From a virus: 56,115 nt of DNA. The stretch lies in IMG/VR virus record IMGVR_UViG_3300027881_000017, positions 1 through 56,115 of that record. One strand, written 5' to 3'. The position numbers and the translations under genes were made by a program. Below, in pieces: positions 10,258-45,885 of the stretch. Positions within the stretch are counted from its first letter, which is position 1; each line of letters begins with the position of its first letter. The notes below the pieces were generated by a model. It was given only the letters and a program-made list of their open reading frames with translations. It ran no database searches and was not told the DNA's origin.

Positions 10258-11039
10258 AATTAAGCGTATGTTATATGGTTAAAAACGAGATTTTAAGTTT
10301 GCCTGAAAGCATTATGCACACCAAGGATCTTGCCGATGAGATTTGTGTGGTTGATACCGGCAGCACTGATGGCACTGTGGGATATTTGAAAGAAATGCAG
10401 AGTGAGAATACTCTAAAGTTTGCTGAGTTTAAATGGTGCGATGATTTTAGCGCTGCCAGAAATGCTTCGCTTGATATGGCTACTGGGGATTGGATTTTAA
10501 TTCTTGACGCTGACGAGTGGATTTATCTCGATCAATTTGAAACTATCCGTAAATTAATGTCTGACCCCAACATAGATATCTGGGAGTTTAGTATTCTTAG
10601 TTTTATGCAAGATCCGCATTGGGTAAAAAAACCCGTTGTCATTAAAGGTTTTGTCGAGCGGATGTTCCGCAATGGAAAGGGTTTTAAATACGAAGGAATA
10701 GTTCATAACAAATTAATGTTTAATGGCCAGCTTTCTAAGAATAGCAAGTGCGCAATTAATAATTTTAAGTTCAGAGAGAAGCGCACCTATAAAGAAAAGG
10801 CAGCGGCAAATAAAATACTACTCGATAAAAAAATCATTGACCAGGGATGGACTTTCTTGAACTGTGTTCATTACGCAGATATTTATAGGGGATTGTGGAC
10901 ATGGTTTGGCGATGTAAAAGATGGCAACAGAGCCGTTCATTATTTAGATATGGCATTAAAAATAAAACATGATCGAAGAATGGTTGAAACTAAGAACTCA
11001 ATATTACAAGGAGTGAGATATGCCAAGTCCCGGTATTAA
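10254..11039 (+). CDS. Glycosyltransferase family 2
   Basis: 261 residues, GT-A fold. Motifs: MVKNEILSLPESI (nucleotide-binding start), VVDTGSTDGT (about 34-43), FSAARNASLDMATGDW, ILDADEW (DxD-type metal/sugar-nucleotide motif, about 79-85). Similar to SunS/WaaE-like family-2 enzymes. The start overlaps the stop of the beta-propeller tail protein (ATGA), so the two are probably translated together; the tail protein is a plausible substrate (inference). Confidence 0.88.
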   Translation: MKLSVCYMVKNEILSLPESIMHTKDLADEICVVDTGSTDGTVGYLKEMQSENTLKFAEFKWCDDFSAARNASLDMATGDWILILDADEWIYLDQFETIRKLMSDPNIDIWEFSILSFMQDPHWVKKPVVIKGFVERMFRNGKGFKYEGIVHNKLMFNGQLSKNSKCAINNFKFREKRTYKEKAAANKILLDKKIIDQGWTFLNCVHYADIYRGLWTWFGDVKDGNRAVHYLDMALKIKHDRRMVETKNSILQGVRYAKSRY

Positions 11040-12016: not shown

Positions 12017-14404
12017 ATGTCAAATGTAATAGTAAGAATTATTGCTCAAAACCTTATGAAAAAAGGTTTCTTGGCTGCCGGCGCCGATGTTAAAAAATTT
12101 GAAGCAGCCACGAAAGCAGCGACGGCAAGGCTGGGCAAGATGGCCATTGCTGCCGGTGTTGTTGGCGCAATAGGCATTGCAAAGTTTGCAAAGTTTGATA
12201 AAAGTATTCGCGAGATCGGAACACTGCTTGGCAGAGTCACTGATGAAGACATTAAAAGGATGGGCGAAGAGGTCAAGTCTATGTCCGCCAAGTTTGGTCA
12301 AAGCGTTGAGAAGATGGCCAAAGCGAAGTATGATATTATTAGTGCTGGATTTACCGATGCTGCTGAGAGTGCAGAACTCTTAGATGTTGCTGCCCGCCTT
12401 GCATCTGCTGGTGTTACTACTGTTGCTAAAACTGCCGACGTTTTGACTTCTGTTCTTAATGCTTATGGAAGAAGTGCTAAAGATGCAGAACATTTTAGCG
12501 ATGTTTTGTTTACCACTGTTCGTTTAGGCAAAACTACAGTTGATCAATTGGCGTCTGGTCTTGGGCGTGCTGCTGCAATAGCTCCTCAGGTTAACGTTAG
12601 CTTTGAAGAATTGTCTGCCGGCATTGCAACGCTAACTGCTGGCGGCCAGTCAACTGATGAGGTTATGACTTCAATGGTCGCTACAATGTCTGCCATGTTA
12701 AAACCTATGCCTGCTTTGAGCGCCAGGCTTAAAGCGTTGGGTTTTGATACTGGAAGTGCGGCGTTCGAATCTTTGGGTTTTGCTGGTACGTTAGAAAGAC
12801 TTACAGAGGAAATGACTGAAACTGAAATTGCATCGTTCTTCCCTAATATTAGAGCACTAAAAGGAATTTTCCCTTTAACGGGTACGCTGGCAGATAAATT
12901 TACAGAAAACGTAAAAGCGATGGATAAAACTGCTGGAGCAACTGATAAGGCTTTTGGTGTAATGGCAGATGGCATTGCATTTAGATTCAGCCAGATGGGA
13001 GCAGAAGCAGAGAACGCATTAATATCAATTGGTGAAAACTTATTACCAGTTGCTGAAGGATTGCTTTCATTGTTAGAGGGATTTACTAAATTAGATCCGG
13101 CAATGCAAACTGCAATTATAACTTTTGGTTTATTAACAATTGTGGTGGGTAGTTTCGCCACAGCGATTACAATAGCATTGGGACCAGTTGGATTATTATA
13201 TGCCGCTGCTGGAATCCTGGCTGCTGCAGTTGGAACTTATGTTGCTGTTTCAGTTACTGCTACAGAAGAAACTGGCAAACTTGGGGATGCCACAGAAACT
13301 GCTGCCGGCAAAATGAAAATAATGAAGAATAGATTAGATGAATTAAATATGCGACAGCTTGAGGTTAGGGTTATCCAGGTTACTAATGAGATAAAAAGAC
13401 TTGCCAAAAAATTTCAAGAAGGTGGAATGGGTGCTGCTGTATATTCCGCAGAACTACGAACTTTAAAGATTGAATTAAAAGCAACAAAAAAAGCATTAGA
13501 TGATTTTGATAAACGGGGAGCGGCAGCTGCTGATCCAGACCCAGAGGATAAAATCAAAGCTGGTCTTAAGTTTGCTACCTGGGAAGCATATTATGCTTCG
13601 CTTGATGAGGCAGCTCAAACAAAATTAGAAACAGAATTTGAAGCTTTTGATACTGTTTTGGAATACCAAGTAGCAACTGACCTCAGCAAATTAGAATCAG
13701 ACATGATGTACCAAAATACTGTCAAGGAGAACGCAAAGAAAAAACGAATAGCGATGTTAAAATTTCTTATCCAAGAAAGAATGGATAAAGAGGCTGCTAT
13801 AAAAAGACAAATCGAGCTTGATAAATTGGCAGCAAGAGCTAAAGTAATGGCAATAAGAACGGCATTAAATGATATTGCTTCTCTTTTTGGCAAACACACT
13901 GCAATAGCAAAAGGTGCATTAATGACTCAGGCCTTAATGGATACTTATGCTGCTGCGAACAGGGCGCTTGCTTCTTTGCCGCCGCCATGGAGTTTTATTG
14001 CTGCAGCGGCGGCGGTGGCTGCTGGATTGTCAAATGTCGCAAAGATATCAGCGATGGCCCGTGGCGGGATTGTTGAGCCAATAAGAGCACAAACCGGAAT
14101 AGTATCTGCGGGATTTGATTCGGTTCCAGCGTTATTGCGTCCAGGTGAAGCAGTGATCCCAACAGAAACCGCTCGTGACAACTTGCCCGCTATAAGGCAA
14201 TTAATTGCTGGACAAAGCATTAGCGATGGTGGCGGAGGCGGTGGATTGTCAATACAAATAGTGAATAATATTTCCGCTATTGATTCTCAGGGCGTTGCGG
14301 AATTTGTTGAAAGTGGAGATTTTAAAGATGCGATTGTGGATGCTATCAATGATGAAAAGATTAGATTAAATGCTGGGACAGAAACAGTGACAGGAGTATT
14401 TTAA
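12017..14404 (+). CDS. Tape measure protein, TP901 family
   Basis: 795 residues. Residues about 70-350 carry the TP901-type core (EVKSMSAKFGQSVEKMAKA, VLTSVLNAYGRSAKDAEHFSDVLF, GKTTVDQLASGLGRAAAIAP, LTAGGQSTDEVMTSMVATM). Hydrophobic segments lie at about 360-410, a charged helical stretch at 430-620, and a Gly-rich C-terminus. At about 1.5 angstrom per residue the tail would be near 120 nm (rule of thumb). Directly follows the chaperone pair. Confidence 0.9.
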   Translation: MSNVIVRIIAQNLMKKGFLAAGADVKKFEAATKAATARLGKMAIAAGVVGAIGIAKFAKFDKSIREIGTLLGRVTDEDIKRMGEEVKSMSAKFGQSVEKMAKAKYDIISAGFTDAAESAELLDVAARLASAGVTTVAKTADVLTSVLNAYGRSAKDAEHFSDVLFTTVRLGKTTVDQLASGLGRAAAIAPQVNVSFEELSAGIATLTAGGQSTDEVMTSMVATMSAMLKPMPALSARLKALGFDTGSAAFESLGFAGTLERLTEEMTETEIASFFPNIRALKGIFPLTGTLADKFTENVKAMDKTAGATDKAFGVMADGIAFRFSQMGAEAENALISIGENLLPVAEGLLSLLEGFTKLDPAMQTAIITFGLLTIVVGSFATAITIALGPVGLLYAAAGILAAAVGTYVAVSVTATEETGKLGDATETAAGKMKIMKNRLDELNMRQLEVRVIQVTNEIKRLAKKFQEGGMGAAVYSAELRTLKIELKATKKALDDFDKRGAAAADPDPEDKIKAGLKFATWEAYYASLDEAAQTKLETEFEAFDTVLEYQVATDLSKLESDMMYQNTVKENAKKKRIAMLKFLIQERMDKEAAIKRQIELDKLAARAKVMAIRTALNDIASLFGKHTAIAKGALMTQALMDTYAAANRALASLPPPWSFIAAAAAVAAGLSNVAKISAMARGGIVEPIRAQTGIVSAGFDSVPALLRPGEAVIPTETARDNLPAIRQLIAGQSISDGGGGGGLSIQIVNNISAIDSQGVAEFVESGDFKDAIVDAINDEKIRLNAGTETVTGVF

Positions 14405-17203: not shown

Positions 17204-17236
17204 ATAAAAAAACCCCGACCATTTCTGGCCGAGGTT
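17204..17236 (-). terminator. Intrinsic terminator of the leftward operon
   Basis: On the minus strand a 10-bp stem (arms 17227-17236 and 17211-17220, two G:U pairs) with a 6-base loop is followed by a run of seven T (17206-17212 as A on plus). On the plus strand the same arms have two A:C mismatches and a weaker tail, so it serves chiefly the minus-strand genes, though it may also slow the tail operon that ends at 17201. Confidence 0.78.
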
Positions 17237-17241
17237 AATTT

Positions 17242-17448
17242 TTAAATATCGATCTTATCTATTCTCCTTGTCCCGTGAAGCTTGTTATCCTTTCTTGCCC
17301 GAGGATTTCTGTCTTTTATTTTACGCTCGCATTTATAACACGGGATGCCTGTTCCTTTTTTTGCGATCAAGTTCATCTTAAGTGGTTCGCCGCAGACAAT
17401 ACATTTATCCATTGGGCTTTTCTGTTTGTAATCATATGGTTTTTTCAT
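17242..17448 (-). CDS. Small zinc-finger protein
   Basis: 68 residues from the ATG at 17448, which has AAGAGGG upstream and overlaps the stop of a 30-residue membrane peptide gene (ATGA); a longer reading to 17598 is open but lacks such support. Two Cys pairs (CIVCGEP, CYKCERK) spaced by about 18 residues form a zinc ribbon, followed by a basic tail (KIKDRNPRARKDNKLHGTRR) suited to nucleic-acid binding. Last gene of the leftward operon. Confidence 0.62.
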   Translation of the reverse strand: MKKPYDYKQKSPMDKCIVCGEPLKMNLIAKKGTGIPCYKCERKIKDRNPRARKDNKLHGTRRIDKIDI

Positions 17449-17537
17449 AATAACCCTCTTACTATCTGAACCGCAAAATAAATTGCAGTCAGGGTCATAA
17501 ACATTATTGCCAAGATATAACCTAATCCTTTCTTCAT
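17445..17537 (-). CDS. 30-residue membrane peptide
   Basis: Reads MKKGLGYILAIMFMTLTAIY and on to VRGLL, a single membrane span with basic ends. AAAGGAAA lies 3-4 bases before the ATG and the stop overlaps the next gene's ATG (ATGA), so it is well placed for translation coupling. Function unknown. Confidence 0.55.
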   Translation of the reverse strand: MKKGLGYILAIMFMTLTAIYFAVQIVRGLL

Positions 17538-17690
17538 TTGATTTCCTTTCCATTTGTGAATAATAATTTTCTCCCACGGCTGTAAAACCTGCACTCAATC
17601 AAAGTCGACTCCGCCCAATGTCCCGCCAAGGTCGGGGTCGCTTGTGGCTATCGGTTTTCCTCTTTGATCTGTGGTGCTAATGAAAAGTAA

Positions 17691-18503
17691 TTATTCTGAT
17701 CCCATTAATTGTTGGCTGGTTTGAATCGAAGCGTCAATTGCTCTCCTGCGGTTTCGATTCTCCATTACGTGGGTTGTAAACCAAGTTACCATATTGTAGA
17801 AATCCCACATGGTTTTAAGTTCATCGTTTTTTAGTTTCTGCTGGTAGATATATCCAATTTTTTTGCTATACATTTTGCCGAGTTCCAATGAACGTAAAAC
17901 CACAGCCGCTTGAACTTTGTCAAAATCAAGCTTGGTTAGTTCTTCCCAGGAATTTGCAAGATCATTGTAGAATATTTCCTTGGCCATTTCAAAATTAACA
18001 ATAAATATATCCAGTAGATCTTCTTCACTTCCAACGTGGCTGTCACGCCATTCATACAATTTTTCTTTGGTCATTAAACCGTTCAAGCAGATCTTGCGCA
18101 ATCCGCCAATGCTCATTCCTTTGCTAATACCGTCACCATATCCGTTCCAAAGATCGCACATCAGTTCTATGTCATCTGTCATGCTACCATATCCAGTTTC
18201 GTATTCGCCGACGTTGGTTTTAATGTCTGGGAAACGATAATTTGCCCAGAACCGGCTTCCAGTTAAGTTGCATCCTGCTCCAGTTCGTGAAAATTTCACG
18301 TCGGTATCGTTCAGATATTTTTCAAACGTATTTACGAGAACATCATTCTGGACGATTTTGTACCGGTTAGATACGACCGATACCAGATTGCCCGTATTTG
18401 CGTTGAAAATAGCCTGTCTGGGGATCAAAACACCTGATTCGACTGCTTGTACTTTCTCAACCTTTAACGGGAAAAACGGATCAATCAGTTTTTCTTTGCT
18501 CAT
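17691..18503 (-). CDS. DUF932 / phage-plasmid-like protein
   Basis: 270 residues with AAAGGAG before the ATG. Recognised by ANTGNLVSVVSNRYKIVQND, GYGDGISKGMSIGGLRKICLNG and CDLWNGY, the core of the DUF932 family common in phages and plasmids; its function is unknown. After the TAA, the same frame stays open for 31 more codons (to 17595). The 5' leader contains a T-arm-like hairpin. Confidence 0.72.
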   Translation of the reverse strand: MSKEKLIDPFFPLKVEKVQAVESGVLIPRQAIFNANTGNLVSVVSNRYKIVQNDVLVNTFEKYLNDTDVKFSRTGAGCNLTGSRFWANYRFPDIKTNVGEYETGYGSMTDDIELMCDLWNGYGDGISKGMSIGGLRKICLNGLMTKEKLYEWRDSHVGSEEDLLDIFIVNFEMAKEIFYNDLANSWEELTKLDFDKVQAAVVLRSLELGKMYSKKIGYIYQQKLKNDELKTMWDFYNMVTWFTTHVMENRNRRRAIDASIQTSQQLMGSE

Positions 18504-18530
18504 GATTTACTCCTTTTGTTTGTGGTTTGC

Positions 18531-18571
18531 AGCACGGGCTGGAGTTGAACCAGCCCTGCGACCATCGTGCT
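18531..18571 (-). other. tRNA T-arm-like RNA hairpin in a 5' leader
   Basis: On the minus strand a perfect 7-bp stem (18550-18556 with 18536-18542) carries the 7-base loop TTCAACT, the T-loop pattern of tRNAs, and is enclosed by a 5-bp AGCAC/GTGCT pairing (18567-18571 with 18531-18535). No D arm, anticodon arm or acceptor partner is found, so this is not a tRNA gene. A 33-codon open frame (18507-18608) runs through it but lacks a convincing ribosome site. It lies 28-68 bases before the DUF932 start. Confidence 0.4.
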
Positions 18572-18723
18572 TGTTACCTCGAGTTGATACTGTAAAGAAC
18601 TTCGCCATTTTCTTTTTCTTTTTGTACATCGTATTTAGTCCGCATATTATGAAGATGGCGAGTAATGGTTCTGGACAATGCTTCTTTATCCTGGCATGAG
18701 ATGTATATGATTCATGCTTCGCC

Positions 18724-18765
18724 CGCAAGTGGCTAAATGCCCTATTTTAAGCCGCCACTTCGGCT
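18724..18765 (-). ncRNA. Pistol-ribozyme-like RNA (5' domain)
   Basis: On the minus strand: P1 of 5 bp (AGCCG 18765-18761 with CGGCU 18754-18750), a 6-base loop AAGUGG fully complementary to CCACUU (18732-18727), a 17-base linker UAAAAUAGGGCAUUUAG, and GCG after the pseudoknot strand. P1 length, loop length, linker length and the AAAUAG, UUnAG and GCG positions match the pistol consensus as I recall it. The P2/P3 half is uncertain: UGCC (18684-18687 on minus) could close P2 with GGCA, but the canonical G-U cleavage step is not there. It begins in the stop codon of the 18764 gene. Confidence 0.5.
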
Positions 18766-19303
18766 ATGTGTAATCACCGTTTAACAATGTTTCGCTGATT
18801 TCATCTGCGTTGAATTTTTGTCCTTTGTAATATACAGTATAAGTTCCATCTAATCTTACAAGAATGCCCATCGTCCTCTTCTCTTCTGTTTTAAATTTCC
18901 ACGCTACTTGCTTTCCTTTGCTTAATGCAGGATTTGGGTCTACGCCAAAAATTTCTTTAATTTTTTCTCCAGCAGATCTTAACAACTCGTCTTTTTTTAA
19001 CAATAAATCTTTACGAGTTGACGATTTTTTCTTGTTCGGTTTTGTTACTGCTTCTTTTTGGTGTTTTTGCAACTCTGAAACAAGATCGTCTTTTTTGACG
19101 TTGGCTAAATTGCCGGAAGTATAACCGCCCATAAAAGGCGTTAAAGCACGATTTAATTCCTGTTTAGTCATTGTTTCTAATTGCTGCGTGTTCATCTTGT
19201 TCTCCTTTTGTTTGGTTTTTGTTAAAATTGGAACTCTTGTAGCAATAGAATCATTGCCATAATAATCCTTCATTGCTCTTTCAACCGCTTGGCTAAAAGT
19301 CAT
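18764..19303 (-). CDS. Phage protein of unknown function, two possible starts
   Basis: 179 residues from the ATG at 19303 (AAAGGAAAAACA upstream) or 143 from the ATG at 19195, which has the stronger AAAAGGAG and the same AAACCAAAC leader as neighbouring genes; both may be used. Residues after 36 show a SAP/HeH-like helical pattern (MTKQELNRALTPFMGG, NVKKDDLVSELQKHQ), a Lys-rich linker, then a beta-rich end (GKQVAWKFKTEEKRTMGILV, DGTYTVYYKGQKFNADEI). No function assigned. Confidence 0.6.
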   Translation of the reverse strand: MTFSQAVERAMKDYYGNDSIATRVPILTKTKQKENKMNTQQLETMTKQELNRALTPFMGGYTSGNLANVKKDDLVSELQKHQKEAVTKPNKKKSSTRKDLLLKKDELLRSAGEKIKEIFGVDPNPALSKGKQVAWKFKTEEKRTMGILVRLDGTYTVYYKGQKFNADEISETLLNGDYT

Positions 19304-19332
19304 TGTTTTTCCTTTCTGTTTTAAATGAATAG

Positions 19333-19373
19333 CGGCTGGCGGGATGCGAAATCCCGCTTACGCTTTTCAGCCG
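19333..19373 (-). ncRNA. Nested intercistronic hairpin
   Basis: A perfect 7-bp inner stem (19351-19357 with 19339-19345, 5-base loop) is nested in a 6-bp outer stem (19368-19373 with 19333-19338) with a one-sided 10-base internal loop. The outer stem includes the UGA stop of the 19367 gene. No T-run follows, so it is not an ordinary terminator. It could protect or mark an mRNA end in the gap before the next gene. Confidence 0.45.
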
Positions 19374-19729
19374 TTCACAAATAAATTGCTATCAACTTTG
19401 CCACTGACGTCTACCCGTTTGAATTTTGACCGCTCTTTGATATATTTTTTAAACTCTTCTACATCCATATCGGTTTTGTTAGCATAAGTAATACAGGCTT
19501 CGATATCTTCTTTGGTTAATTTGATTGACATCAAGTACATTATTAACCAAGGATCTGCAAGCGAGTCAGCGCGAAGATGATCCTCACCAACCTTTAACGT
19601 GCCTTTAACCGTTACGGTAAATTCTACCGGATATTGCCCAGGTTTTACTTTTGCCCTGGCTGCTTTGTAGTCACCGTTAACTGCATTCTTTAATGCAATG
19701 ATTTCTACTGGTTTTAATTTCTTAACCAT
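19367..19729 (-). CDS. Phage protein of unknown function
   Basis: 120 residues, AAAAAGGAG leader. Patterns LKPVEIIALKNAVNGDY, YPVEFTVTVKGTLKVGED, LSIKLTKEDIEACI-like. The first half reads as a small beta domain and the second as helices. Seen between other early-region unknowns; no family recognised. Confidence 0.58.
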   Translation of the reverse strand: MVKKLKPVEIIALKNAVNGDYKAARAKVKPGQYPVEFTVTVKGTLKVGEDHLRADSLADPWLIMYLMSIKLTKEDIEACITYANKTDMDVEEFKKYIKERSKFKRVDVSGKVDSNLFVNG

Positions 19730-19747
19730 TACTTTCTCCTTTTTGGT

Positions 19748-20014
19748 TTAATACCATTTAATTTTTCCATCTAAATAATAGCCAACTAAATCCCAATCCT
19801 CATCGTAGAACGATGATTCAATTTTGCCATGAGTACCAATGTCCCACATTCTGTTTTTAAATTTTGTAAAAGCGCAATCTCTGAAAAATATTTGAAGATT
19901 ATATCTTTGACGCAGTTTAAAAACGATGATATTGGGATCATTAAAGAGCTTTCTTATAAGTTTTAATCGGCTCGGGGTAATATGGAGAGGTCTATCTCTT
20001 TTTTTAATTTTCAT
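19748..20014 (-). CDS. Small basic protein, unknown
   Basis: 88 residues from the ATG at 20014 (AAAGAG upstream); a longer reading to 20062 would overlap the preceding gene without better support. Basic N-terminus (MKIKKRDRPLHITPSRLKLIRK), aromatic C-terminus (DEDWDLVGYYLDGKIKWY). Follows the 20025 gene after 10 bases. No family recognised. Confidence 0.5.
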   Translation of the reverse strand: MKIKKRDRPLHITPSRLKLIRKLFNDPNIIVFKLRQRYNLQIFFRDCAFTKFKNRMWDIGTHGKIESSFYDEDWDLVGYYLDGKIKWY

Positions 20015-20024
20015 GTTAATCTCT

Positions 20025-20279
20025 TTATTTACCTGGCTCTGGTTCCCAGAAAAAACTATCAATGATTTTTTCTTCGTGTTCTGTAACCATCAATCGAATT
20101 ATTGCCTTTATTGTTTCATGGGGAAACAATGCCTCAATTTCTAAATCAACCATCGGCTCATTAACAATATCTCTTATTTTGTCTAACTGATCATAATAAG
20201 ACATGGCATAAAATTCATCCCACTTGGCATTAATCTCATCGTCCAAATGTTCTTTTTCACCCTGTAATATATTACTCAT
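20025..20279 (-). CDS. Small acidic protein, unknown
   Basis: 84 residues with the repeated leader ACAAAAACCACAAAGGAG. Acidic and helical (EHLDDEINAKWDEFYAM, MVDLEIEALFPHETIKA), ending in EPEPGK. Its mRNA leader contains the hammerhead-like RNA at 20302-20355. Function unknown; small acidic early proteins of phages often target host factors, which is only a general possibility. Confidence 0.52.
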   Translation of the reverse strand: MSNILQGEKEHLDDEINAKWDEFYAMSYYDQLDKIRDIVNEPMVDLEIEALFPHETIKAIIRLMVTEHEEKIIDSFFWEPEPGK

Positions 20280-20301
20280 TACTTTCTCCTTTGTGGTTTT
20301 T

Positions 20302-20355
20302 GTCTAAGACCCGCCCGAAGGCAGGTTTCGGATATTAAATCCTCATCGGTTAGAC
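20302..20355 (-). ncRNA. Hammerhead ribozyme-like RNA (type I)
   Basis: 54 bases on the minus strand in type I order: stem I GUCUAA, core CCGAUGA, stem II GGAU-UUAAU-AUCC, GAAA, stem III CCUGCC-UUCG-GGCGGG, then UC, and stem I closing strand UUAGAC. Stem I is 6/6, stem II 4/4, stem III 6/6 with one G:U, the A15.1-U16.1 pair is present, and cleavage would follow the C of UC. The single departure from the consensus core CUGAUGA is C for U at position 4, which should weaken but may not abolish activity. It starts 2 bases after the stop of the 20357 gene and ends just before the leader of the 20025 gene. Confidence 0.72.
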
Positions 20356-20356
20356 T

Positions 20357-20779
20357 TTATTCTTCTTCCATAAATTCAACTAAATCTTCAACATCAATTA
20401 TAAACTGTATAGTTGCTTTTGCTTCCGCAACTTCACGAGCAACCCTTACTGGTGAACTTGAACTATGATAATGACCAAATATTCCGTGAGCATTATTAAA
20501 GTGACGTTTTTTCCAAATCTTAGCGTTGACAACTAACCATATTTTAAATTCAGAAAGACGAGATGTTTTCTGAAACTCATCATAAATCATCAACCAATTT
20601 CTTAATGCTGTTTCTGCTTCCATTGTTGCATCGCCATATGCTTCAAGTTGCATTGCAATAGTAAGAAATTCACAGTCTTTAACTTTGTCTTGAAATTCCT
20701 GAATAGTCTTTTCTGCTTTTGAAATGTGGCGATTAATTAATTTTGCTGCGTTGTTTTTGCTTTCTCTTGATTGTACCAT
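20357..20779 (-). CDS. Helical protein, unknown
   Basis: 140 residues, CACAAAGGAG leader. Mostly charged helix (AAKLINRHISKAEKTIQEFQ, ATMEAETALRNWLMIYDEF) with a His-rich turn (HFNNAHGIFGHYHSSSSP) and an acidic end (DVEDLVEFMEEE). No family recognised. A hammerhead-like RNA directly follows its stop. Confidence 0.55.
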   Translation of the reverse strand: MVQSRESKNNAAKLINRHISKAEKTIQEFQDKVKDCEFLTIAMQLEAYGDATMEAETALRNWLMIYDEFQKTSRLSEFKIWLVVNAKIWKKRHFNNAHGIFGHYHSSSSPVRVAREVAEAKATIQFIIDVEDLVEFMEEE

Positions 20780-21253
20780 TTTGTTTCTCCTTTGTGGTTT
20801 GTGTAAAATAGCCGCCAGTCAGGTCTTAAAACCTGCAACCTAAAATACTTGTCATCGATAAAATCGATCGGCTTGATTTTGGTATCGCTGGCGAAAAAGG
20901 AGTCGGGTTGTTTTAAGGATTCCTCCAGGAAATCGGCCTATCATCCGATTATGTCGTCCTGATGTCTATCTTTGATTTCACCTGCCTTATCACGCATAGT
21001 ACCAATGTTTCATCAAAAGAGATTACTACTGGTTTTTGGAAGTGTTTCAGGCTTATGTCTGCTCTATTCATTTTTTCCCGAGCCAGGGATGTGGAGGAGT
21101 TTGGGGTCAGGTGCTCCCGTTGAACCTGTTTGGTGTTGTTCACCACCCAATAAGAATATACACAATAAATAGACAGAAGTAAACAAAAAAAATTATTTTT
21201 TTTTATCTACTTTCATTTACCTTGCTTAAGTAGAAGAAAAATAATAGTTTAGA
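20780..21253 (-). other. 474-bp non-coding, structured region
   Basis: No convincing gene. Seen: (a) a three-way-junction fold directly before the 20779 gene: outer 6-bp stem 20813-20818 with 20888-20893, arms 20820-20824/20831-20835 and 20854-20859/20863-20868; (b) a hairpin 20931-20936/20945-20950; (c) an H-type pseudoknot candidate, GGAG 21093-21096 with CTCC 21114-21117 crossing CAGGT 21108-21112 with ACCTG 21124-21128; (d) an AT-rich tract 21181-21253. It could hold a promoter for the leftmost genes, a small RNA, or a replication element. Confidence 0.45.
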
Positions 21254-27379: not shown

Positions 27380-30214
27380 TTAAAATGGCAATTCATCTTC
27401 TTCTTCCTCTAACCTTTCGTCAACTTTGTCAGCATCAAACAGTTCGCCGTTTTTATGTGTTCTTAAAAATTCAGAAAATGCTCTGGTCTTTTCATATCCG
27501 CCGCTAATCCGTTTTAATGCTTTGTTGATCAGTAATTTGTTTAATAGTTTTCTTGTATCTCCCCTGTTGCCCAGATCAAACATTTCTTGTAAATCTGTCT
27601 GGCTTATTTTTTCAATTTCTAATAGTTGATCTATTACATATCTCTTGTCAACAAGAAGTTCTTTTATCTCGTCTTCGTTTAATATTTTTTTACGCGTCTT
27701 TTCAAGCCGGCTATATTCATCGTATCCCATTACCGGTTTGTCGAATATCTTACATAGGTAATTGTAGGCAAATTCTACATGAATTTTATTTACAATAAGA
27801 TTTCTGCCGTCATGGCTAAATACCATCGCTGCTGTTGCTACCGCTATTTTTGCCAATCTTACCCTTTGTGAGTTTGGTATCATTAAAGGGATTGATTCAT
27901 CATATTTAAATGCCATCCATTTTGTGCACTGATATATGTGGTTCATCGCTTCTTGAGTAAATGTTATTTGCTCTTTTTTTAATGTCCAGGCAAACATAAT
28001 AAGATCTCGGAAATCGTCGCCGACATATTTAAATGTCTTAGGCGCTTTTATTGGCGTGTTAATTATATCCATTGACACGTCGTCTATGCCCAACAATAAA
28101 ACTAAATCGAATCTACTCATATCTTCTTTTTGACCAACCAGTTCTGGGAATGCTCTGACTCCCTGACTATAATCGCCGAGCATTTTATTATGTTCTTCTT
28201 TGGTTCCACGTGGATTACTTAACCATATGAGCCGAGTACGCGCCCATGTTTTTTCTGTCCTGATTTTTGTTATCTCTGCTCTACCGCTGGATCTAATGCC
28301 GGATAATTTCGCAATTTCCCATAGAGCCAGTCCGCTCATCTCATCAACAGCTACCAATCTTTTATCATTTAATGGAATACGCCCCCAGGTTAAGTGCCAT
28401 CGGCTGCCCATCTGTTGGAGCCCACCAACCAATCCGGCAAACGAGGCACTTTCACCAAGGACCAATTCTCCAAGTTTAAAATATTCTATTAATGATTTTA
28501 TCATTTCTGTTTTTCCGGTTCTTGTATCGCCAAGCACAAGGCTTTCAAGATATCCTTTATCTAATTGCTTGTCTTCAAAACTCCACACCAATGGGCTACA
28601 ATATGTCAAAAGCGTTAATGTAAATAAATCTTCACGACCTTTTAATCCAGTAACGTGCATGACAGTACTTTCGTATATATCCTGGATTTTTTCTTCAATA
28701 TTATCTGTTTGAAATTTTTCTAATTTTTTTACAGTTTCATCGGTAAATTCGTAACTGTCGATTGCGGTCATGCTCGGCTTAGCGTTAAATATTAAATGTG
28801 TTCCTTTTTGTGTCTTTGGATGGGCGATGGTTTTTGCTTCCATGTCATATGATCTATTTGCTTCAATGTTGTGGCCAATATAATACGATCTTCTGGTTTT
28901 AAATTGTTCGTCCTGATTTATGTCAGTCGTGTATTCTATCTCCGTTGTAAGCACAACCTCTTCGATATTAAAACTTTTCTTTTCTTCGATATTAACTATA
29001 TTACATCTTTGTGGTATACCAAGTATTTCTTTCAGCCCGGTTGTTTTTTCTTTTTTAGTTACGTCGCACAACAACAGTATATTTTCATCGCTTTTTTCAA
29101 TTACTGCTTTAATGTCGCCACTGTCAAAATTCATCGGACATACCGGACATGCTTTTTCACTATAATTTATGCTGCAAGTTGCGTGTATTTTTTGTGGTAC
29201 AATATATGCCTCAATGTCTTTGCCTGAAATAAGCGCGCTTGTTCTTATAAATTTATTATTATATTTTCCATGATCTGCTTGTGCTAATGATACTTCGAAA
29301 AACTTATCTTCATCTTCGTCCTTCAAAATATACAGCGGCATGCTTTTTAATAATTTTATTAAATCTTTTTTTTGCGCACCATTTATAATATAATCTGTCA
29401 AGTCTCCACCAGGATATTGCTCAATATCAAGTGGTAAGTTTATTATTTTTATAGCGTCGGCGAATTTACTTAGTAGTTTTGCGACTCTTTGGCTGCCGGC
29501 CTTACCTGCTTCGTCTATGTCATAGCAAATCATGACCTTCTTGCCACTGAAATATTTTGCCCATTCCGCCGGAAAAGTGCTTACCCCGGTTGTACCTGTA
29601 ATTGCGTTATAGCCCAACTGGTTCGCCAGAATACAATCCATTTCTCCTTCACAAAGCATAACCGTATTTTTGTATAAGTTTTCTGCTGGAAATAATCTTG
29701 CAGCACCATACCCACTTTTCCAGCTTGCGACCTTTGGCTTTCCTTTCTCTGGTCTTGGATCGTGAATTCTGATATTTACTATTTCGCCATATATATCATA
29801 TATTGGGATTGTAAATTTTTGATTAAACGCCCCAATTTTATACTTTTTTACTGTTTCTATTTCTAACCCTCTTTTGCGCTTTAACCAATTAATAGCTGTT
29901 TCGTTTTTAATTAGTTCTTGATGCATTGTATCTATTTCTGATTTATCAATTTTTTTCTGTTCTGTTTTAATGTTGTTTTCAGCAGCAATCTGCTTTAAGT
30001 CTAAATTTTGCTTTTTACACCATGTAAGAAAATTACCCTTTTCGTTGCAAGTGTGGCAATAATACATGCCCGTCGCGGCGTTGATGCTCATGCTGGCATG
30101 CTCGTCTTCGTGGAACGGGCAATTTATGATTATTTGGTTTGGACCAGTACTCTTTCCACGCGGGTAAAAATCAATAAAGTGTATTTTTGAAAGAAGCTCA
30201 TCGACCCAGTTCAT
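27380..30214 (-). CDS. DNA primase fused to MCM-like AAA+ helicase
   Basis: 944 residues. Residues 28-60: CHC2 zinc finger (Cys32, His35, Cys53, Cys56). About 180-275: TOPRIM with VMLCEGEMDC (Glu) and ICYDIDEAGKAG (DxD). About 550-740: AAA+ with Walker A LGDTRTGKTEM (near 560), ESASFAGLVGG, Walker B RLVAVDEMSGL (near 620), sensor-like RLIWLSNPRG and SRFDLVLLLGIDD, the arginine-finger motif of MCM proteins. The C-terminus looks winged-helix-like (YVIDQLLEIEKISQTDLQEMF) with an acidic tail. DnaG-type primases usually pair with RecA-fold DnaB helicase, so the MCM-type partner is notable. It would prime and unwind at the phage fork. Confidence 0.85.
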   Translation of the reverse strand: MNWVDELLSKIHFIDFYPRGKSTGPNQIIINCPFHEDEHASMSINAATGMYYCHTCNEKGNFLTWCKKQNLDLKQIAAENNIKTEQKKIDKSEIDTMHQELIKNETAINWLKRKRGLEIETVKKYKIGAFNQKFTIPIYDIYGEIVNIRIHDPRPEKGKPKVASWKSGYGAARLFPAENLYKNTVMLCEGEMDCILANQLGYNAITGTTGVSTFPAEWAKYFSGKKVMICYDIDEAGKAGSQRVAKLLSKFADAIKIINLPLDIEQYPGGDLTDYIINGAQKKDLIKLLKSMPLYILKDEDEDKFFEVSLAQADHGKYNNKFIRTSALISGKDIEAYIVPQKIHATCSINYSEKACPVCPMNFDSGDIKAVIEKSDENILLLCDVTKKEKTTGLKEILGIPQRCNIVNIEEKKSFNIEEVVLTTEIEYTTDINQDEQFKTRRSYYIGHNIEANRSYDMEAKTIAHPKTQKGTHLIFNAKPSMTAIDSYEFTDETVKKLEKFQTDNIEEKIQDIYESTVMHVTGLKGREDLFTLTLLTYCSPLVWSFEDKQLDKGYLESLVLGDTRTGKTEMIKSLIEYFKLGELVLGESASFAGLVGGLQQMGSRWHLTWGRIPLNDKRLVAVDEMSGLALWEIAKLSGIRSSGRAEITKIRTEKTWARTRLIWLSNPRGTKEEHNKMLGDYSQGVRAFPELVGQKEDMSRFDLVLLLGIDDVSMDIINTPIKAPKTFKYVGDDFRDLIMFAWTLKKEQITFTQEAMNHIYQCTKWMAFKYDESIPLMIPNSQRVRLAKIAVATAAMVFSHDGRNLIVNKIHVEFAYNYLCKIFDKPVMGYDEYSRLEKTRKKILNEDEIKELLVDKRYVIDQLLEIEKISQTDLQEMFDLGNRGDTRKLLNKLLINKALKRISGGYEKTRAFSEFLRTHKNGELFDADKVDERLEEEEDELPF

Positions 30215-43796: not shown

Positions 43797-45885
43797 GTTC
43801 ATAGATCAGATTGTAAAAGACTATGAACCAAAACAGAAAACTGTGGCAGAGGTATTGTTCAATCTCGGGGCAACGACCGGATACGATACGAGCACAGATC
43901 AGTTCGCCGACCAGCAAAGCCTCAATAGTATTTATAGCAACATCACTTGGGCGTATCGCTCAATAGCATTTATTGCTTCGAACCTTGCTCGAATTCCCTG
44001 GATATATAAAAAGAACGACGAGGATATAACCGACACTATTGTTGATGATATATTCCAGAACCCAAACCCAATGCAGACTCGATATGATTTTTTCCTTGAG
44101 TCTATTAGCCGATTAGAGTTACAGGGTGAGATGTTCTGGGAATTATTTCGCGGCACTGGCGCCGTTGGCAGGCAAGTGCTTGCCATATTCCCAGACTGGC
44201 GCAGCGAAGAAGTTACGGTCATCCCGGACAACAAGAAATATGTTATTAAAGGATACAAGCGGAACATCAACGGCAAGGTGGTTGATTTTGACGCCGATGA
44301 AGTATTTTATCTTAAGCATTTTAATAGTTTAAATCCTATTCGCGGGATGAGTCCTTTATTCCCTGCCAGGCACGCTGCGGGCACAGACCTTAATGCTACT
44401 TATTATACTAAACAATTTTTCAAACAGGGCGCCCGACCAAGCGGTATGCTAACTACGGAGCAGAAATTAACTGAACCGGAGCAGCGTCGCCTCGAAGAAT
44501 ACATCAAGAAGAAATATCAATCGGTCAATCAGATGCATGAGATCATGGTTATGTGGGGCGGGTTAGAATTTACACCGTTGAACACGATGAACATGACTGA
44601 CATGCAGTTTACTGATCTGAAGAAAATGACCCGCGAAGAAATTATCTTAGCATTTGGATTATCGCTTGAAGTAATGGGGCTCGGGCAAAAGACATTTGAG
44701 AATGTGCAATTTTACAGGCGGCTGGCGTGGACAGAAACGATGCAGCCTCTTATGGATAAATTTTTAGCGCTGTTAAATAAAAATTTGGCTGAAGAATTAT
44801 ACCAAATAGAAGGCATAACAGTCGAAGCAGATTATAATAATGTTGAAGCATTAAGAGAAGAGAGGTCTAAGAAAGTAATTGATTTTGAACGTGGGTTCAA
44901 GACGGGCGCAATTACGCCAAATGAAATGCGCGAGATTGTATTTGGTCTCGATCCAATTAGTATCCCTGAAATGGACAGCACGTATCTTCATCTTAATGTT
45001 GCTAACCCGGTAGATTTACCAGAGATCCAGATGCCAGAATCGGTGCCAGGAACAGAAGCGGTGTCGGCAGGATTTCAACCACTCGGTAAAAAGGGACTGA
45101 GTTATGATGATCGTACAAAAATATGGTATAGCCGGGTAAAAAAATATGAGCAATATGAGCCGTCGTTTAAGACAATGGTTAATAAGATCTTTGATCAAAT
45201 CATGGCTGATGTGAAGAAGAGAGCAAGCGGTTTATTAAAAGGGCTATATGCAAATCAAGCAATTGACAAGGCTGAAGAGGAAGGGATTACTATTCCACCT
45301 TCACTCGTTATAAAGATAAAAAAACTATATGACAATAAACGCTGGGAAAAGGAATTTGCGAGAAAAGGTGAGCCAGTTATACTTGATACAATGGCTTCGG
45401 TTGGCGGGCAGTTATTACAGTCTGAGGGAGAGGTATTTAATTTAGTACATCCTGAAGTTAAAAAATTATTAGGTGAAAGAGTAAAACAGTTTAGTGCTTT
45501 TGTCAGCGACACAACATCAGATGACATCACCCGGATTGTAATAAGGACGCTACAGGAAACTGCAGATCTTAGTATTGCAGAACAGACCAGGGCTATCCAA
45601 AAAGTATTTGATGCGTATCACGTTATGGCGAAGACGAGCCGGGCTGCGACCATAGCCAGAACAGAAGCGATGGGCGCTGCCAACGCTGGTACTCAAGCGG
45701 CGTTGGTTCAGGGCGGATTTTTGCGCAAGATGTGGATCACATCCAGGGACGACCGGGTTAGGGACGAGCACCAAATCGATGGAGAGGTGGTTAATGTCCA
45801 AGAAAGTTTTTCGCTTGGCGTGGCATTTCCTCAGGCAATAAATGAGAGATGTATTATAATAGATACGTTAGAACCAGTAACTTAG
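43789..45885 (+). CDS. Portal protein fused to a MuF-like minor head protein
   Basis: 698 residues; HK97-type portals are about 400-450. Residues 1-400 are portal-like (YSNITWAYRSIAFIASNLAR, PNPMQTRYDFFLESISRLEL, MSPLFPARHAA, QFFKQGARPSGMLTTEQ, GLSLEVMGLGQKTFENVQFY). Residues about 450-698 end in the MuF/SPP1-gp7 signature AATIARTEAMGAANAGTQAA, KMWITSRDDRVRDEHQIDGE and ERCIIID. Two steps of head morphogenesis thus sit in one chain, giving 12 copies of the MuF domain at the portal vertex. Confidence 0.88.
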   Translation: MFKFIDQIVKDYEPKQKTVAEVLFNLGATTGYDTSTDQFADQQSLNSIYSNITWAYRSIAFIASNLARIPWIYKKNDEDITDTIVDDIFQNPNPMQTRYDFFLESISRLELQGEMFWELFRGTGAVGRQVLAIFPDWRSEEVTVIPDNKKYVIKGYKRNINGKVVDFDADEVFYLKHFNSLNPIRGMSPLFPARHAAGTDLNATYYTKQFFKQGARPSGMLTTEQKLTEPEQRRLEEYIKKKYQSVNQMHEIMVMWGGLEFTPLNTMNMTDMQFTDLKKMTREEIILAFGLSLEVMGLGQKTFENVQFYRRLAWTETMQPLMDKFLALLNKNLAEELYQIEGITVEADYNNVEALREERSKKVIDFERGFKTGAITPNEMREIVFGLDPISIPEMDSTYLHLNVANPVDLPEIQMPESVPGTEAVSAGFQPLGKKGLSYDDRTKIWYSRVKKYEQYEPSFKTMVNKIFDQIMADVKKRASGLLKGLYANQAIDKAEEEGITIPPSLVIKIKKLYDNKRWEKEFARKGEPVILDTMASVGGQLLQSEGEVFNLVHPEVKKLLGERVKQFSAFVSDTTSDDITRIVIRTLQETADLSIAEQTRAIQKVFDAYHVMAKTSRAATIARTEAMGAANAGTQAALVQGGFLRKMWITSRDDRVRDEHQIDGEVVNVQESFSLGVAFPQAINERCIIIDTLEPVT

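Follow-up and report, generated by a model that had tools for sequence, protein, structure and literature searches.

A U4C type I hammerhead at a gene junction of a phage operon, and the fixed junction position of phage hammerheads

INTRODUCTION

Can the mRNA of a phage operon cut itself between its genes? The question is raised by the window analyzed here, a phage contig of 56,115 bases from IMG/VR (record IMGVR_UViG_3300027881_000017) with tape measure, portal, terminase, primase, and helicase genes, in which an operon runs on the minus strand from about position 20,900 down to 17,691. The original prediction for this locus, made from the sequence alone, described five genes preceded by nearly the same leader and, in the gaps before four of these leaders, a series of structured RNAs (a hammerhead-like RNA, a pistol-like RNA, a T-arm-like hairpin, a nested hairpin, and a three-way junction fold), and proposed an mRNA that cuts or folds itself into separately controlled units. 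We find that self-cutting of mRNA between genes is well supported as an arrangement used by phages and, within the window, for one gap, that between the genes starting at 20779 and 20279, where a type I hammerhead ribozyme is located. As a description of the whole operon the proposal holds less well, with a secure ribozyme in only one of the four gaps.

RESULTS

A complete type I hammerhead lies between two genes of the operon

The type I hammerhead in the gap between the two genes is on the minus strand, has all its parts, and departs from the consensus core at one position (Table 1); it was identified with a descriptor and with a covariance model. It consists, in 5'-to-3' order, of the first strand of an open stem I (GTCTAA/TTAGAC, 6 pairs), the core motif CCGATGA, stem II (GGAT/ATCC, 4 pairs, closed by the loop TTAAT), GAA, stem III (ACCTGCC/GGCGGGT, 7 pairs, closed by the loop TTCG), C17, and the second strand of stem I, all pairs being standard. 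The core residues C3, G5, A6, G8, A9, G12, A13, A14, A15.1-U16.1, and C17 are present, and the sole deviation is a C for U at position 4 (U4C; C4 at 20348). The predicted cut site, after C17, is between 20308 and 20307.

A descriptor that accepts any base at position 4 matches the window at this site alone; in 400 shuffles, the strict descriptor (stems as seen) gave no match, and the version with relaxed stems gave one. Model R1, a covariance model built from 57 phage hammerheads with the window copy and all U4C copies left out, scores the site at 50.7 bits (E value of 2.9e-13), and the next match in the window has 13.3 bits. The hammerhead-like RNA predicted at 20302-20355 is thus borne out at its exact coordinates and on stronger grounds. 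Hairpins are common in this phage, but it is scarcely credible that the gap folds into a hammerhead by accident, given the score from an independent model, the empty strict shuffles, and a position that follows the rule of the phage family described below. A second candidate, at 28406, resembles a type II hammerhead and was rejected (it has a non-consensus core and lies inside the primase gene), and with its single model match the window was not classified as a ribozyme array.

Hammerheads occupy a fixed position at phage gene junctions

Viral contigs were scanned with a pattern of the hammerhead core plus a ribosome-binding site (RBS), positions 3 and 4 being left open, which retrieved at least 119 stretches. 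Among the 124 matches listed, 65 had a full set of three stems; C3-U4 was present in 60 of these and C3-C4 in 5, with no other combination of letters, and no A4 or G4 copy passed the stem test. When these loci (given L numbers herein) were searched more widely, at least 131 type I hammerheads were found, at least 107 of them unique. R1 returned at least 140 matches in 100 loci, nearly all of which had been retrieved by the core-plus-RBS pattern and which included PaP3, and a single match (in L047) in 1.53 Mb of other phage DNA. The model recovers many phage hammerheads that are missed at the Rfam curated cutoff: of the dozens of type I hammerheads that 14 array-bearing loci contain, RF00163 recovers just 4 at this cutoff (in L152, L198, L157, and L128), and Rfam also misses the type I hammerhead of phage contig L047 (19346 to 19401, plus strand), which has an intact core and lies right after a stop codon. 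In 257 Gb of bacterial genomes, the pattern was present in 52 contigs, only 5 of which hold a model-supported hammerhead; the junction layout is therefore mainly viral in the collections searched.

To avoid circularity, the test of position was confined to 59 model matches that had not been chosen by the RBS pattern. Forty-seven of these hammerheads lie −12 to +6 nucleotides (nt) from a stop codon, and 45 have a start codon 12 to 30 nt downstream; both spacings are found for 38 of the 59, whereas random positions taken from the same strands gave 14 in 2,240. The family medians are −1 nt from the stop codon and 21 nt to the start codon, and the window copy (+1 nt and 22 nt) fits this spacing. 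Phage hammerheads thus begin where the upstream gene stops, with their 3' end about 21 nt ahead of the next start codon, and the same position is seen across the family, including operons with a hammerhead at nearly every junction. The stop rule is also followed by the published phage hammerheads of HF2 and PaP3 and by the Bcep176 candidate.

The stem letters vary widely with the pairing kept, 270 cells being changed on both sides versus 66 in shuffles, a difference that is partly inflated by the makeup of alignment A2, whose members were picked for their stems and whose pairing is thus partly by construction. Stem II and its loop (GGATTTAATATCC) of the window copy recur in hammerheads of L114, L158, and L198, in which the remaining stems differ. 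Near-identical blocks (GGCTAACTGATGAGCTC...) are also found at different junctions and in different phages (L111, L116, L153, L173, and L206). Together with the repeated leader, which is common to unrelated phages, such blocks might point to ribozyme-plus-leader cassettes that serve as shared recombination sites for gene swapping, with cleavage being incidental. We regard this explanation as quite improbable, since the stem letters change while the pairing is kept and since recombination needs sequence identity, not a catalytic core.

The densest array among the matches listed is found in L158 (2292 to 8607, plus strand), with 14 type I hammerheads on one strand within 6.4 kb, nearly one per junction of small genes without assigned function; further arrays are present in L152 (9 hammerheads), L198 (8), L157 (7), and L111 (6). 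Some hammerheads in the minus-strand arrays of L152, L157, and L198 (7 to 9 hammerheads each) have very large stem III loops, which could hold a regulator. L186 (3517 to 5251, plus strand) combines three type II hammerheads, which pass the Rfam cutoff, with three type I hammerheads at neighboring junctions of one operon, and mixed ribozyme types within one phage operon are therefore real. In L158, hammerheads flank nearly every gene on both sides, an arrangement in which genes between two hammerheads could be excised from the transcript and their 5'-hydroxyl and cyclic-phosphate ends sealed by an RNA ligase to give circular messages; a ligase of the RtcB type that could rejoin hammerhead ends is encoded by HF2 (L107, 37516 to 38880), a virus that also carries a junction hammerhead. 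For the operon studied here such circles are very improbable: no RtcB gene was found in the window or among 14 further phage contigs with hammerheads, several of which are incomplete, and the window has one secure ribozyme, so that no gene is flanked by two.

The U4C hammerhead may split the operon message

A viroid hammerhead with U4C is considerably weaker in vitro, yet active enough for infectivity (PMC3088659). The substitution recurs in other phages, namely, in 1 of the 14 hammerheads of the L158 array, in L155/L172/L159, and in L112; a scan with the U4C pattern returned 16 contigs, mostly with matches that lack the fold. As a change reported in an infectious viroid and seen in other phages, U4C counts as a natural core variant with reported function, and it is probably tolerated and slower. 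Because of it, cutting at the window hammerhead is probably slow or partial, so that only some transcripts may be split.

With moderate confidence, we take the U4C hammerhead in the gap between the 20779 and 20279 genes to split the polycistronic phage mRNA into pieces that decay and are translated independently; both the cleavage and its effect on decay and translation are what we infer from the fold and its position. The transcript would be cut after C17. On the upstream message, the stop codon would then be followed at once by the hairpins of the ribozyme, which would form the 3' terminus and carry a 2',3'-cyclic phosphate, and the downstream message would begin with a 5' hydroxyl and a 28-nt A-rich leader (UUAGACAAAAACCACAAAGGAGAAAGUA) in which the RBS is unpaired. 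Neighboring genes may in this way decay and be translated independently, the 3' end of one piece being protected and the 5' leader of the next being short and open. A cut at this point would account for both halves of the position rule, that is, for the spacing from the stop codon and for that to the start codon. The best published hint that a junction hammerhead cuts in vivo is the 5' end of an HF1/HF2 transcript, which maps at most 3 nt from the hammerhead cut site (PMC3088659).

Several points weigh against such splitting. The loss of in vitro activity with U4C is considerable (PMC3088659), and only one gap of the operon contains a secure ribozyme. No relative carrying this operon turned up in the collections searched, and the pairing in alignment A2 is partly built in, as said above. 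Finally, the Rfam hammerhead models, including RF00163, do not report the window copy, a silence that is uninformative because Rfam also misses the intact-core hammerhead of L047. The weak in vitro cleavage reported for U4C and the remaining gaps without a secure ribozyme, together with a pistol-like element that looks incomplete too, are also what would be expected of a decayed ribozyme, one that descends from an active ancestor, has become too slow through U4C, and now acts as a hairpin spacer that keeps the RBS open or is idle. We consider this possible, though on the unlikely side, given that, apart from position 4, the core is complete and none of the 17 stem pairs is broken, which is unusual for decay, and that U4C recurs in the L158 array of otherwise intact cores and in other phages. 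Splitting of the message by a slow hammerhead is the reading that we prefer.

The other gaps hold a pistol-like RNA and folds not clearly beyond chance

The proposal that each of the four gaps holds a functional RNA was not supported. The element closest to a second ribozyme is the pistol-like RNA at 18693-18765, which shares with the pistol ribozyme (RF02679; PMC4604425) P1 (AGCC/GGCT), an 8-nt loop, a 7-bp loop-to-junction pseudoknot (AAGTGGC/GCCACTT), an A-rich linker, and a purine-G/GCG core; P2 is formed by GGCA/TGCC. The core letters, A-G and GCG, match the pistol residues A32, G33, G40, C41, and G42 named in PMC6154101. Unlike in the pistol ribozyme, the stretch from the GCG core to the 3' strand of P2 offers no complementary strands, so that a recognizable P3 with its 2-nt junction is missing, and because P3 cannot be drawn, the cut site cannot be placed. 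The Rfam Pistol model gives 20.0 bits, under its curated cutoff of 34.5. A descriptor of the pistol core is unique in the window, has no match in a further 3.45 Mb from other loci (both strands), and matched 5 times in 400 shuffles, but it was written after the site was seen, which makes its shuffle figures generous. Most of the predicted pistol core is thus present, and we did not file the element as a pistol ribozyme, given the missing P3 and the low Rfam score. The mixing of ribozyme types in L186 makes it more plausible than its score alone.

The nested hairpin, the T-arm-like hairpin, and the three-way fold are present as predicted and are not convincingly beyond chance. The first has a fold z-score of about −2.5 to −2.8, and its bulged layout has about 40 instances in the window, for which reason the bulged-hairpin descriptor was rejected as evidence for this element and for that at 18531. 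The T-arm-like hairpin sits inside a possible basic open reading frame (ORF) of 40 codons (18507-18629, minus strand; MYKKKKKMAKFF...), which occupies part of the long gap ahead of the DUF932 gene and ends in the RBS of that gene; a tRNA reading of the hairpin was rejected, as ARAGORN finds none. The three-way fold has a z-score of −1.6, and 8% of shuffles fold equally well. It is unlikely that the operon is cut at nearly every junction by a different RNA in each gap, that is, by the U4C hammerhead, a P3-less relative of the pistol ribozyme, and two undescribed cutting RNAs at 19333-19373 and 20813-20893.

The repeated leader and the organization of the operon

The near-identical leaders that had been noted before five starts were confirmed: AAACCA(N)AAGGAG precedes the starts at 20779, 20279, 19729, 19195, and 18503, with five copies inside 2.4 kb versus at most two in each of 300 dinucleotide shuffles of the window. 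Structured RNAs had been noted before four of these leaders and not the fifth, which agrees with the element-free gap of the 19729 leader. The same leader is also present in unrelated phages, and by itself it is therefore an ordinary strong initiation region that is reused within the genome. The exact leader was rejected as a marker of relatives, since it retrieved unrelated phages without a hammerhead, and Rfam matches to preQ1-II and freshwater-2 were rejected as well, being far under the cutoff and caused by the AAAGGAGAAA leader. The gene that ends at 18764 has two in-frame starts, 19303 and 19195, with an RBS before each and the repeated leader at the inner one.

TABLE 1 Positions of the leaders, RNA elements, and neighboring genes in the operon region of the window
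Feature	Position	Strand	Remarks
Leader of gene 20779	20787..20800	−	AAACCACAAAGGAG
Leader of gene 20279	20286..20299	−	AAACCACAAAGGAG
Leader of gene 19729	19736..19749	−	AAACCAAAAAGGAG; abuts the previous stop codon; RNA element absent from gap
Leader of 19195 start	19202..19218	−	AAACCAAACAAAAGGAG
Leader of gene 18503	18510..18528	−	AAACCACAAACAAAAGGAG
Three-way fold	20813..20893	−	Operon 5' leader
Gene upstream of hammerhead, 140 amino acids	20357..20779	−	TAA ends 1 nt before the ribozyme
Type I hammerhead, U4C core	20302..20355	−	Descriptor and covariance model
Gene downstream of hammerhead, 84 amino acids, function unassigned	20025..20279	−	ATG 22 nt past the ribozyme, 28 nt past the predicted cut
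Bulged (nested) hairpin	19333..19373	−	Spans the TGA stop codon of gene 19729
Pistol-like RNA	18693..18765	−	Starts inside the TAG stop codon of the 18764-19303 gene
T-arm-like hairpin	18531..18571	−	Inside possible 40-codon ORF
DUF932 protein	17691..18503	−	Near operon 3' end
Strong terminator-like hairpin and T run	17211-17236	−	After the 17242-17598 ORF

The small genes of the operon have no assigned function, except for the DUF932 protein close to its 3' end, and searches of Pfam and PHROGs with the 140-amino-acid protein encoded upstream of the hammerhead gave no match. The terminator-like hairpin is likely the end of the operon. Queries of viral contigs with the DUF932 protein, the 20357 gene, the tail protein, and the helicase identified no close relatives, and INPHARED had no matches to the operon DNA, the tail protein, or the DUF932 protein. 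Alignment of the primase retrieved distant relatives, none with the operon genes; the best of them, the contig of L022, lacks the operon.

DISCUSSION

Two parts of this picture were already known, namely, the occurrence of lone hammerheads between phage genes, which has been described for HF1/HF2, PaP3, and Bcep176 (PMC3088659), and the clustering of ribozymes, as bacterial self-cleaving ribozymes are enriched near Mu-like phage genes and near each other for a biological reason that is still unknown (PMC10085705). The statement that no phage operon organized in this way had been described must be narrowed accordingly: the open-licence literature yielded no report of arrays with one hammerhead per junction at a fixed position (subscription papers and preprints were outside this search), and we claim no priority. 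Their fixed position at successive junctions suggests a reason for them, in that long phage messages may be cut into single-gene units whose 3' end is capped by a hairpin and whose leader is short and open. This offers a testable reason why phages carry hammerhead ribozymes, which can be checked directly via the 5'-hydroxyl ends.

Among known systems, HF2 (NC_003345) is similar in having a hammerhead variant in a gene gap, where one gene ends at 10290, the ribozyme spans 10292-10359, and the helicase starts at 10371. The HF1/HF2 element (HHphage) differs in being annotated as type II with core insertions and in being a single copy in an archaeal virus. In PaP3, the model match (44035-44112, minus strand) likewise lies in a gene gap and starts at the end of orf67, and in Bcep176, a type II candidate (∼12168-12237, with a reported A6C change) is located in a gene gap 2 nt past the stop codon; in contrast to the window copy, both are single copies with different core changes (A6C in Bcep176). 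The phage junction hammerheads of loci L109 to L227, nearly all of which have U4, are in many cases part of arrays, and none occurs with the genes of this operon. Like the window copy, they belong to type I, adjoin the stop codon, and leave about 21 nt to the next start; some of them have the same stem II and loop, or the same stem I, as the window copy.

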